DNA of 49,234 nt, taken from contig JAIPDT010000004.1 of NCBI GenBank assembly GCA_021737545.1, positions 1 to 49,234 of the forward strand, written 5' to 3'. This DNA is from Desulfobacteraceae bacterium. GTDB lineage: Bacteria > Desulfobacterota > Desulfobacteria > Desulfobacterales > Desulfosalsimonadaceae. Shown one piece after another: positions 14,567-25,605 of the stretch; the first letter of the stretch is position 1; each line of letters opens with the position of its first letter. The notes beneath the pieces were generated by a model. The model was not told the origin of the DNA. It saw only the letters and a program-made list of their open reading frames with translations, and searched no databases. The position numbers and the translations under genes were made by a program.

Positions 14567-17500
14567 CTACCTGAACTCCAGTCTATAACGCATTTCACCG
14601 CCAAACGCCCCTTCGGTGTCCTGATAGGCCTTTGCCGAGAGATTTTCCATAAGCTTATATACCGCAGTGCTCTGCTGAACCATCTCTCCTCCCTTTGTCG
14701 TCATGCCGTACTTGACCGTCAGCCGTCTGGACAACTCTTTTCCCAGGGTGACGCGAACCTCGTTTGAAACTTGCTCTTCATCGCCGTTCTGTTTGTATTC
14801 GAGCTCCACTATATCCAGGCCGGTACCCGCTTTAACCTGTTTTTCCAGCCTGCCTGCCAGCAGATCCGCCAGCATCTCTTCAGGCGAACGACCGGCCGTT
14901 GAAGTGCCTGCCAGCTCCCTGGTGGTTTTGCCGACTGCCAGAAGGGATAAAATATCGGCGTCTTCTTCGGGCGGATTGGACGAAAGACTGAAATCCAGGT
15001 TCTCAGGGGTTCCTGTCACCGACAGGGTGATTGTCCATTGCCGCACTAGGGATTCGGCTCTAATATCCACCTCGGGTTCTATCCGGTATGGATTGATAAA
15101 ATCAATAACCCCCTTTTTTACTTCAAATTCTGTGTTACGGTAGGCAATGGTCCCTTCGGTTATTTCCGCCCGTCCCGTAATAACCGGGCTCTCGAGCCTA
15201 CCACTGATGCTGAGCTGCGGCCGGATGGCGAGCAGGGCCAGGTTGTTGTCAAGCATGAGCGGATTGCGGTGCCCGAGGGAAATGTCTAAAGAGAGGTTTT
15301 GAAGAAAAGGCAAATCCAGGGCGGGCAGTTCCGCGCGGGGAGTTGTCTGACGATGACGCCTGCCTATATCCCCGGCTTTTTCAATCAAACTCAGATTGAC
15401 ATCCTTGAAATAATGCCCATCCACCAGTACTACAGCTCCGGTAAGAGATGCGGCCTGCGGCGTGCCGGAGAATTTCAGGTCGGTATTTATCCTCGTCTCC
15501 ATTACATCAGGTATCTGAACAGGCAGGGATTCGGCAGAAAACTCCAGGTCAGCACCGGCGGGTTTGAAATTTTCAAGATCCACGTTTCCGGCCAGATTGA
15601 AAGACCCGTTTTCAAGCTGACCCGAAATTCCGGCAATCCCGACCTGCTTTTTTGTCAGGACAATACTGCCGTTTACCCCATGCAGCCGCTGCATGGTCCG
15701 GTCAACAGTCATCTCCAGGTCCCGGAGCGCAACTTCTGCAGAAAAATCAGGGTTTTCCATCTTGCCGCGGATTCCGGCGGACAGCAAGAGCTCGCCTTTT
15801 ACGGAATGGATTTCCCCTGCGGCCATTGACTCTCCAAGCTTTGCCGGGAAAACTCCTTGTGCGGTTATGTCGATTTCCCGCTCCAGGTTGCCCGTTCCCT
15901 GGATATCTATATAACCCTGCTTTAACACGCTAATTCGGCTGCCGGGCATTAAAATTTCCCCGTTTTCCATGGAGGCGGTTAAATTCTCGGCAAATGCAAT
16001 TTCATCTCCCTGAAACATCAACCTCAGAGCTGAAACAGTCAGATGCGCCCGGGTGTTTTTGATCCGCCCCGTATTTCCCTCGGCCTCCAGGCGCCCCCTG
16101 ACCTGTCCGGTAAAATCCTGCAGGCCGGCGAGTTGAAAAAAAGGAGCAAGTTCGGTTTCCGGCAGTTTAGCTGTTACTGAAAAATCATGTTTTACCAAAT
16201 CGTATTCGGTGTGTATGGAAAAGGGGTCCTCAACTGCGACCCGCACGGCAGAACCCCGGAGATATGCATTGACGATTGTATCAGGAATTTCTTTTCCGCC
16301 CGCCGTCAGAGCCGAAAAGCGGAGATTTGCGTCCATCTCCGGGGAGTTAATGCTGCCGGCCCCTTCTGCCGATATCTTGACCCTTCCGGTCAGTTCAGTG
16401 TGTTCAAGCATTTTTAATTTTGTCAGCTCAATTGTATCCGATGTGACGGCCAGCTCATAGTTTCCGTCCGGGGAAACCCGGCCCCGTGCCTGCAGGGCCT
16501 GTCCGGGGACGAGAGAAATTTCAAGAGGTTCCAGGTAAATCTTTCCTCCGTCAATCCGGGATTTTAAATAAACCCCGGAAAGCTTCTGTACGCCGGTCTC
16601 CACCTGAGTTATCTCCGCAGTGAGGCTGCCCTGAAAATTTTTCAGGCTTCCGGCGGTCAGATCAAGATCGGCAGACAGGCCGCCGGCTGCCGCATCCCTG
16701 AATCCCGGATTCCGGGCCCGGATGTTTGCGCTTATCAAGGGCTGGAGAACAGGGCCTGATATGGTTGCCTGCAATTCTGCAGCATCCCCCCTGACGCCGG
16801 GGATTCCCAGGCTTGCTGCAAATTCTGCAAGGTCGGCTACTTTGACGGAAGTCTCCATGTTTATGGCATTTTCTGCGATATCGTATTCTCCTGCGGCCTT
16901 GAGGTTAAAACCGGTGCCGTCAATGCCGAGCGTGTCAAGCCCGAGCCTTTGCCCGGACAAATCAGCCCGCACAAGGACCCGCAGATCAAGGGGGTCGATC
17001 GATTCGGCCGCTGCGATATCATCCGTCCGGATTTCTGCATTCACCCCGGCACGCGCCGTGCCCGGAGAAATGCCGCTGCCTTCCAGGTTCAGGTTGCCCG
17101 ACAGATTGCCAGAAACGGGCGGTATCCCGGGAATCTCCGATAACCGGAGTTTGGCGGCTGCCAGATCAAATTTGTAGGAAACCGAGTCGAAATCTGCAGG
17201 CGGTGCCGTGAATCCGTCCGGAAACACTTGCTGTAAATCAATTGTCCCCGAGGATTCAATACTGCCGCCCGCCAGGGCCGCATCCATGCGCCGGACAACG
17301 GCTTTTCGATCCTTTATCCGGATTTGCCCCGCGGCTTTTCCAATTTCCATCCCTGCCAGCCGGCCGCCGTTGTAATCCAGGCTCAAAGAGACCTCGGGGT
17401 CTTCCGGCCTTCCGCTCGCCGCCGCCTTCAGGTTTATTGCGCCCGAAAGTTCCGTATCCAGCCCCAGCATCCGCCGGAGTTCAGAAAGCTCTGCGGAAAG

Positions 17501-18307
17501 CTCCATTTTGATATCCAGCAGGGGGCTGTCGAATATGTCGGATACCGAACCTGAAATCGCCAGACGCGAGTCAGGCACGCTTATTTCCAGTTTCAAAGGA
17601 TCGATGCGGCCTTTATCCAGAACTACTTGCATGGAAATATGAGTGATGGGAATATCCATTCTATAGGTGTTTATATGGCCGCCGCCGGCCGTCAGACTAA
17701 GTTTTCCGGCTTTATCCGCCAGTTCGACATCCGCGATCGTGATGCCGATATCCTTTAGCCGGGCGCGCGGGCCCGCCTTGCCCGGTTCCGATCCTTGTAA
17801 CTGAAAGGAAAAACTCCCCTCTTCCAGGACCAGTTTATTGATTCGAAGGTTTAATTCAGGGGACACCATACCGAATTCGTTTGAATTCGGTATGGTGTCC
17901 CCTGAATTCTCACGCCCGGCAAATGCCTCGATAAGATTAAGGCGCCCCTGGCGATCAACTGCCGGAAATGTCTCTGGTTTTTGGATGCGGACTGCTTCAA
18001 CCGTGATCCTGCCTGAGAACAGGTCTGTTATGCTGATGTCCGCAAACAGACTCCGGGTTGTAAGGATTGTATTTTCTTCGGCATCCAGGACTTTCAGCCC
18101 CAGGATTCTTACTTGTCCCTTAAGGATGGAGACGTGCTGTGTTTGCCAACTTACATGTCCGGCAATAGCCGGGTTTATCCGTTCCCGGAGCATGCGGCCT
18201 GCGGTGTCGGTGTTTACAAACACCTGAATCCCGGAAAAAACGGCCAGCAATAGCACCAGGAGAATGCCTGCAGTTATTGCAATTATTTTTATCAGCCAAC
18301 GTATCAT
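14567..18307 (-). CDS. tamB: TamB/AsmA-like translocation and assembly protein
   Basis: A 1246-residue envelope protein. One N-terminal membrane helix (about residues 5-28, IKIIAITAGILLVLLLAVF) is followed by a very long, repetitive beta-rich periplasmic part. The DUF490/TamB C-terminal domain has LDISLGHRNPLMLDNNLAL and FINPYRIEPEVDIRAES. TamB bridges inner and outer membranes and supports phospholipid transport and protein assembly with TamA, which is the next gene. I chose the ATG at 18307: the 53 extra residues of an upstream start have no domain and overlap a kinase remnant. A perfect 56-base palindrome (17853-17908) is read in frame as residues about 134-152, an insertion-like segment described separately. 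Confidence 0.85.
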   Translation of the reverse strand: MIRWLIKIIAITAGILLVLLLAVFSGIQVFVNTDTAGRMLRERINPAIAGHVSWQTQHVSILKGQVRILGLKVLDAEENTILTTRSLFADISITDLFSGRITVEAVRIQKPETFPAVDRQGRLNLIEAFAGRENSGDTIPNSNEFGMVSPELNLRINKLVLEEGSFSFQLQGSEPGKAGPRARLKDIGITIADVELADKAGKLSLTAGGGHINTYRMDIPITHISMQVVLDKGRIDPLKLEISVPDSRLAISGSVSDIFDSPLLDIKMELSAELSELRRMLGLDTELSGAINLKAAASGRPEDPEVSLSLDYNGGRLAGMEIGKAAGQIRIKDRKAVVRRMDAALAGGSIESSGTIDLQQVFPDGFTAPPADFDSVSYKFDLAAAKLRLSEIPGIPPVSGNLSGNLNLEGSGISPGTARAGVNAEIRTDDIAAAESIDPLDLRVLVRADLSGQRLGLDTLGIDGTGFNLKAAGEYDIAENAINMETSVKVADLAEFAASLGIPGVRGDAAELQATISGPVLQPLISANIRARNPGFRDAAAGGLSADLDLTAGSLKNFQGSLTAEITQVETGVQKLSGVYLKSRIDGGKIYLEPLEISLVPGQALQARGRVSPDGNYELAVTSDTIELTKLKMLEHTELTGRVKISAEGAGSINSPEMDANLRFSALTAGGKEIPDTIVNAYLRGSAVRVAVEDPFSIHTEYDLVKHDFSVTAKLPETELAPFFQLAGLQDFTGQVRGRLEAEGNTGRIKNTRAHLTVSALRLMFQGDEIAFAENLTASMENGEILMPGSRISVLKQGYIDIQGTGNLEREIDITAQGVFPAKLGESMAAGEIHSVKGELLLSAGIRGKMENPDFSAEVALRDLEMTVDRTMQRLHGVNGSIVLTKKQVGIAGISGQLENGSFNLAGNVDLENFKPAGADLEFSAESLPVQIPDVMETRINTDLKFSGTPQAASLTGAVVLVDGHYFKDVNLSLIEKAGDIGRRHRQTTPRAELPALDLPFLQNLSLDISLGHRNPLMLDNNLALLAIRPQLSISGRLESPVITGRAEITEGTIAYRNTEFEVKKGVIDFINPYRIEPEVDIRAESLVRQWTITLSVTGTPENLDFSLSSNPPEEDADILSLLAVGKTTRELAGTSTAGRSPEEMLADLLAGRLEKQVKAGTGLDIVELEYKQNGDEEQVSNEVRVTLGKELSRRLTVKYGMTTKGGEMVQQSTAVYKLMENLSAKAYQDTEGAFGGEMRYRLEFR
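17853..17908. repeat. Perfect 26-bp palindrome inserted in frame within tamB
   Basis: Left arm 17853-17878 and right arm 17883-17908 are exact reverse complements (26/26) around a GTTT loop. The arms contain GGGGACACCATACCG, a form resembling the ends of REP/RAYT-type palindromic elements, though no such transposase uses it here. On the minus strand it is translated as part of TamB, reading about NSGDTIPNSNEFGMVSPEL with no stop codon. Translated both ways, the two strands give nearly the same peptide because the unit is palindromic. It resembles the protein-embedded palindromic elements described in Rickettsia. Confidence 0.85.
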
Positions 18308-25083: not shown

Positions 25084-25605
25084 GGGGTCAAACCTTGATT
25101 ATTGTCTTTAAAGATTGACAAAAAAATTCATTCAGGACAGACTCAGTCCATGGTAAGGCAACTGAGAAAAGATTTTTGTGGTGTATATTACCACATTCTT
25201 TCCCGGGGAAACAACCGGTCTTATATTTTTTGTTCCGACAAAGACCGGCGGGAATTTTCATATTTGCTGGCCGCCTTTTCTCAACACTTTGCCATTGAGA
25301 TATATGCTTATGTGCTGATGGACAATCATTATCATTTGCTTGTTCGCACCCTGGAACCCAATCTTTCCAAAGCCATGCAACGGCTTGGCACCGCCTACAC
25401 ACAACGCTTCAACTCCAGAAACTCAAAAAGCGGCCATCTTTTTCAGGGGAGATTTAAAAGCTTCCTGTCGGCGACTTGTTGGGCCTGACGTATTCCTCTG
25501 TGAGCCGAAAAATTCATCATGTCAGGTCAAAAATGAAAAGCAGCGGCCAAAATAGCTTGAAAAACATTTATGAGACAGTAAGGACAAAAATCAAGGTTTG
25601 ACCCC
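25084..25605. mobile_element. Deleted REP/RAYT-type element with terminal inverted repeats
   Basis: A 522-base unit bounded by inverted repeats. The left end 25084-25106 begins ggggtcaaaccttgatt, and the right end 25583-25605 is its reverse complement at 22 of 23 positions. It encloses the remnant of a Y1/REP-associated tyrosine transposase, whose last codons lie inside the right repeat. No flanking direct repeat was seen, as expected for this transposase class. The unit looks non-autonomous. Confidence 0.75.
25150..25601 (+). pseudogene. REP-associated tyrosine transposase (Y1/TnpA_REP), internally deleted
   Basis: The N-terminal part is intact: MVRQLRKDFCGVYYHILSRG, the HUH metal site in LMDNHYHLLVRT, and the probable nucleophile tyrosine in AYTQRFNSRNSKSGHLFQGR. 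Just after FKSFLS the frame shifts, and the string VGDLLGLTYSSVSRKIHHV follows in the +1 frame, ending ETVRTKIKV-stop. That is the usual C-terminal end of such transposases, after a DnaA-like helix. Roughly 100 residues that normally join the parts are absent, and the reading frame is broken at about 25467-25472. The chosen start follows the family N-terminus; upstream in-frame codons belong to the inverted repeat. Inactive as a single protein. Confidence 0.75.

Follow-up and report, generated by a model that had tools for sequence, protein, structure and literature searches.

REPINs consist of two inverted REP half-units that form one hairpin and depend on a RAYT in trans, and they are mostly extragenic and high-copy. 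Palindromes embedded in proteins have reportedly been known since work on Rickettsia in 2000, and we know of no transposase assigned to the best-known cases, the Rickettsia palindromic elements (RPEs) and the CGTC repeats. RPEs are 105-146 bp long and confined to Rickettsia, with in-frame palindromes known in both Rickettsia and Wolbachia (PMC2229807). Intragenic GTAG/CGTC REPs are reported from many bacteria in PMC3733652, which gives no transposase for the CGTC repeats. A further class comprises the TIR repeats and TIRtrons of the TIR-associated tyrosine transposases (TIRYTs; Di Nocera et al., 2013, PMC3733652; discussed in PMC6006769). According to these two papers, GGGGWSAS is a motif common to the inverted repeats around 'TIRYT' Y1 transposase genes, and most published TIRYTs belong to TnpA-Y1 subclass 2.1, with a C-terminal HTH tail. 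The parts of them consulted make no mention of intragenic TIR repeats, and no report of intragenic GGGGWSAS repeats, or of the arm sequence described here, was found in the literature searched (covering few subscription journals and excluding supplements).

The window analysed here, a 49,234-nt stretch from a 2.6-Mb MAG of a Desulfobacteraceae bacterium (185 contigs, 93% complete), contains a perfect 56-base palindrome (17853-17908), as the initial annotation had claimed, in which two 26-nt arms (17853-17878 on the plus strand and 17883-17908 on the minus strand) are 100% complementary around the 4-nt spacer GTTT. This is the strongest close inverted repeat in the window, with about 1e-11 such arm pairs expected by chance in 49 kb, and its minus-strand RNA has a folding energy of -51.7 kcal/mol (z = -10.6). 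The unit is REP/TIR-like, being made of two inverted GGGGACACCATACC half-units with the GTTT loop between them and AATTC/GAATT at the outer ends. The left arm, AATTCAGGGGACACCATACCGAATTC, of which the right arm is an exact inverted copy, includes GGGGACAC, which is present in both arms and fits the GGGGWSAS motif given in PMC3733652, and neither a GTAG nor a CGTC tag occurs in the palindrome sequence.

The palindrome lies in tamB (14567-18307, minus strand, start ATG at 18307), an intact reading frame for a 1246-aa protein with a Pfam TamB match at residues 895-1245 (4e-45), i.e. a full TamB. The proposed in-frame read-through is confirmed by an open minus-strand frame, with positions 17852-17908 encoding NSGDTIPNSNEFGMVSPEL without a stop as residues 134-152, inside a Pfam DUF748 match (residues 3-251) that spans the insert; the tryptic peptide expected from the translated palindrome is ENSGDTIPNSNEFGMVSPELNLR. 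The site is a linker in the N-terminal AsmA-like region of TamB, between conserved 'AF' and 'N(L/V/I)RI' stretches. The suggestion that residues 134-152 are a lineage-specific insertion held in part: NSGDTIPNSNEFGMVSPEL is absent from the aligned TamB orthologues of the same family, whose identity in this stretch is no more than about 30-43%, but these have a linker of similar length instead, with 15-23 unrelated and often proline/glutamate-rich residues (lengths counted by hand) corresponding to the 23 residues of the 'AF...NLRI' linker, 19 of which are palindrome-encoded.

A search of the same MAG allowing up to two mismatches returned one further palindrome (C96:8256-8315), with the other matches at the level of the reversed-pattern control, giving two palindromic copies in this genome, both in genes. 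The second copy is likewise read in frame, as NSGDTSNSGDTILNSSELSMVSPEL, in the C-terminal portion of a protein of the CxxCxxC zinc/iron-chelating family; the segment is missing from aligned orthologues of the family and is also a gap in DNA alignments with three relatives. The supposition that other genes of this organism carry the same peptide is borne out by this gene. In G005, a genome of the same genus, a WecA/MraY-like glycosyltransferase has a GGGGACACAATAC version in frame close to its C-terminus, encoding NSGDTILNSCELSIVSPEL. The frame shared by the three in-gene copies of the genus was considered as a sign of frame selection and rejected, being mostly forced by stops, since the arm TTAA (two of the three copies) puts stops in the other frames. 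The GTPY frame is also used in other phyla and, over all 83 units described below, a single open frame is commonest (39 units), with no open frame in 13.

A scan of 84,980 species genomes for the core GGGGACACCATACY...RGTATGGTGTCCCC found it in records labelled as Deltaproteobacteria/Desulfobacterota, Nitrospirae, Armatimonadetes, Rhodospirillales, Magnetococcales, planctomycetes, Bacillota, Actinomycetes and others. The exact 56-base palindrome, with any 4-nt loop, had no match in these genomes, and a plasmid search gave matches at chance level only. The resulting 83 non-redundant units, including the two of the MAG itself, are 41-78 bp long and come, with few exceptions, from uncultured bacteria belonging to many phyla, the majority lying in no recognisable gene. 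The expected further copies, in-gene and intergenic, were found in many other genomes, but the MAG itself has only its two. Two deltaproteobacterial MAGs share orthologous copies between genes at two sites (about 2780-3085 in L056 and about 7140-7430 in L131), with diverged loops and one copy decayed in L056.

Counting tamB and the CxxCxxC gene, there are at least eight in-frame sites in real genes. Those in Nitrospirae MAGs are nuoG, where the Pfam molybdopterin domain spans the palindrome, prmC, where an alignment to a solved structure places the peptide at a gap with in-frame homology on both sides, and a GT1 glycosyltransferase. In Armatimonadetes MAGs, copies are found in frame in a mandelate racemase-family dehydratase of the ManD type, where solved-structure alignment places the peptide in a variable loop, again with in-frame homology on both sides, and in a gene with an HZS-alpha middle domain. 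The cobQ gene of a Rhodospirillales MAG has the palindrome in frame between its two Pfam domains, with no solved-structure match past the first domain. Several genes with in-frame copies also occur in other MAGs. Where a long frame spans the palindrome in a GC-rich genome (L075, L121, L126, L108, L084, L063, L076 and L125), it was not counted as in-gene, because either no family matched the frame or the palindrome preceded the first domain and probably the start codon as well. A secretin-like protein (L088, 1396-3543, minus strand) has a palindrome of uncertain in-gene placement, read in the GHHT frame, close to what looks like its N-terminal signal region. The Nitrospirae nuoG (L058, 1443-1500) has a GGGGACACC palindrome plus an in-frame GGGGACAGAATTAAATTCTGTCCCC palindrome (…GTELNSVPEKGGKGGF…) and then a G-rich repeat, i.e. 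several repeat kinds within one essential-type gene. A separate dispersed repeat like AAGGGGGGATGGGGGGATTTGA, with dozens of matches in the Nitrospirae MAGs G146, G148 and G163, is also translated inside prmC (L070) as SPHPPLSKGGMGERGG.

In at least five genomes (G005, G001, L223, L226 and L237), two of them in the same genus, the repeat is found next to or on both sides of genes belonging to a single Y1-transposase subfamily. A 255-aa Y1_Tnp frame of G005 is bordered by a GTAATTCCGGGGACACAATACT doublet and, at its opposite end, by an inverted copy. In G001 a GGTATGGTGTCCCCGGAATTAC doublet comes after a Y1_Tnp fragment, and in L223, L226 and L237 the core or a one-base variant is present on both sides of the Y1_Tnp genes. 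A tree of 31 Y1 proteins placed all the repeat-adjacent genes in one branch of 10 entries (support 81/99), separate from Y1s with other ends; the members of this branch have in common a sequence like AHRRYTRxxNFREGWRGHLWQGRF. Using Pfam, only Y1_Tnp and no C-terminal HTH was found in L203, L222, L223, L228 and L237, and the same scan detected a DnaA-type HTH in other Y1 proteins. Neither of the two Y1 genes in the 93% complete MAG carries the tamB-type repeat; their ends differ, and the cognate enzyme would therefore have been lost or not assembled. The window also holds a second, unrelated transposase unit, of GGGG type (25084-25605), in which a truncated Y1_Tnp frame (25102-25488, plus strand) lies between exact inverted repeats GGGGTCAAACCTTGATT (25084-25100 and 25589-25605), the only two copies of that repeat in the genome.

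The tamB palindrome is very probably a copy of a short, non-autonomous mobile REP/TIR family, likely spread by a Y1 transposase, that gives rise to a tolerated passenger peptide in a linker, and the idea of a mobile palindrome put forward in the initial annotation is supported and largely right. Units of the family would be built of two inverted GGGGACACMATAC half-units and would most likely have been spread by the Y1 (HUH) transposase subfamily of RAYT/TIRYT type whose genes are adjoined or flanked by this repeat; from the sequences we infer that this protein moved them in the past, acting in trans on single-stranded hairpins. One copy would have landed in the variable TamB linker, of which it is now nearly the whole, and could be fixed and translated there because the site is a tolerant linker or loop and one frame is stop-free. 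Presumably the 19-residue peptide is translated in the cell and persists as a passenger that is neutral or nearly so. Weighing against this reading, the MAG has only two copies and the repeat accompanies neither of its two Y1 genes, the TamB relatives compared reach no more than about 30-43% identity around the site, and the Y1 subfamily is without the HTH tail of most published TIRYTs.

How the units entered their host genes can be approached from filled and empty orthologous sites, which were seen in the ManD-type, HZS-like, prmC and CxxCxxC genes, with DNA flanks about 80-87% identical in the ManD-type and HZS-like pairs. In the best pair, from two related Armatimonadetes MAGs (flank DNA identity 85-87%), the ManD-type gene has a 70-nt palindrome encoding KMGTPYSFRETSCEMSMVSPFS in one, with homology on both sides, versus 36 nt of different sequence encoding RGSDAPRPEGAL in the relative. 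The HZS-like gene has, at a second site of its own, a 64-nt palindrome that is slightly degenerate (GAGGGACACC), against about 24 nt in the relative, and prmC shows a similar exchange pattern. Because of these three pairs and the similar TamB linker lengths, the unit seems to stand in for a host loop (24-36 nt in the close pairs) and not to lengthen it. The earlier proposal of an insertion adding a tolerated peptide is borne out by the in-frame peptide in several genes, but the peptide occupies the position of a host loop or linker and is no plain extra insertion. It is a serious, if not the favoured, possibility that the same mobile family enters by substitution, with a copy replacing a host segment in one step, for example by a single-stranded copy annealing at short homologies, so that loops are exchanged and not lengthened. 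The three pairs argue for such a route, as does the TamB linker with its 23 residues against 15-23 in orthologues; however, such loops change quickly, so that an insertion later trimmed or diverged would look the same, and the closest pair compared is only about 87% identical. Slightly more tentatively, the Y1-linked palindrome family may swap variable loops and linkers for its own peptide across several phyla, as a transposase-driven loop exchange. Two Armatimonadetes MAGs (L085, 1-900, and L100) are 100% identical over the first ~350 nt of the HZS-like gene, palindrome included, past which identity falls to about 70-90%, indicating recombination or a chimeric contig.

The very stable hairpin could also point to a palindrome retained for function, either as an mRNA or DNA hairpin controlling tamB expression or as a peptide useful to TamB, but this is unlikely given that the unit is also found in unrelated genes and intergenic DNA and that TamB relatives are without it. 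It is highly improbable that the palindrome arose by chance, belongs to ordinary TamB sequence or is an assembly artefact (inverted repeats can be such artefacts, and the MAG is in 185 contigs), in view of the chance expectation given above, the orthologues without the peptide and the presence of the core both in a second, unrelated gene of this MAG and in numerous other assemblies.

REPs inside genes were known before; what is new here is the tamB palindrome family, its likely transposase and the replacement pattern. With the mobile family as the preferred reading, the spread of protein-embedded palindromes becomes testable, since the family comes with a recognisable Y1 subfamily, with filled/empty pairs and with copies inside genes for conserved enzymes in several phyla; the replacement pattern suggests a route for exchanging protein loops.

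The tamB-type unit resembles REPINs in having two inverted half-units that form one hairpin and in its probable dependence on a RAYT in trans, but REPINs are mostly extragenic and high-copy whereas the two copies of the tamB family in its own genome are both in genes. The likeness to RPEs (PMC2229807) drawn in the initial annotation holds for behaviour, the family being a palindromic mobile unit in frame in many unrelated genes with a tolerated peptide, and two of these genes, tamB and the one for the CxxCxxC protein, belong to a single genome; it differs from RPEs in its size of 41-78 bp, its occurrence in many phyla and its linked transposase subfamily. With the GTAG/CGTC REPs, as described in PMC3733652, it has in common short palindromes in genes, translated and probably in tolerant linkers or loops, but it has neither tag, is a different sequence family with a candidate transposase, and is present in only two palindromic copies in its own genome where those REPs are high-copy. 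The suspected REP-type resemblance stands in that the units are REP-like and flank REP-type Y1 genes, and among described classes the GGGGWSAS TIR/TIRYT group comes closest. As far as that group is described in the text available to us, the likeness extends to the GGGGWSAS motif, to inverted copies around Y1_Tnp genes and to dispersed single and doublet copies elsewhere, whereas the Y1 proteins linked to the tamB family are without the HTH tail of subclass 2.1 and its units are complete palindromes in frame inside genes. Given the GGGGWSAS fit and the repeats beside Y1 genes, the tamB palindrome is, as judged from sequence, a REP-like, RAYT-type palindrome that is RPE-like in behaviour but is no RPE.
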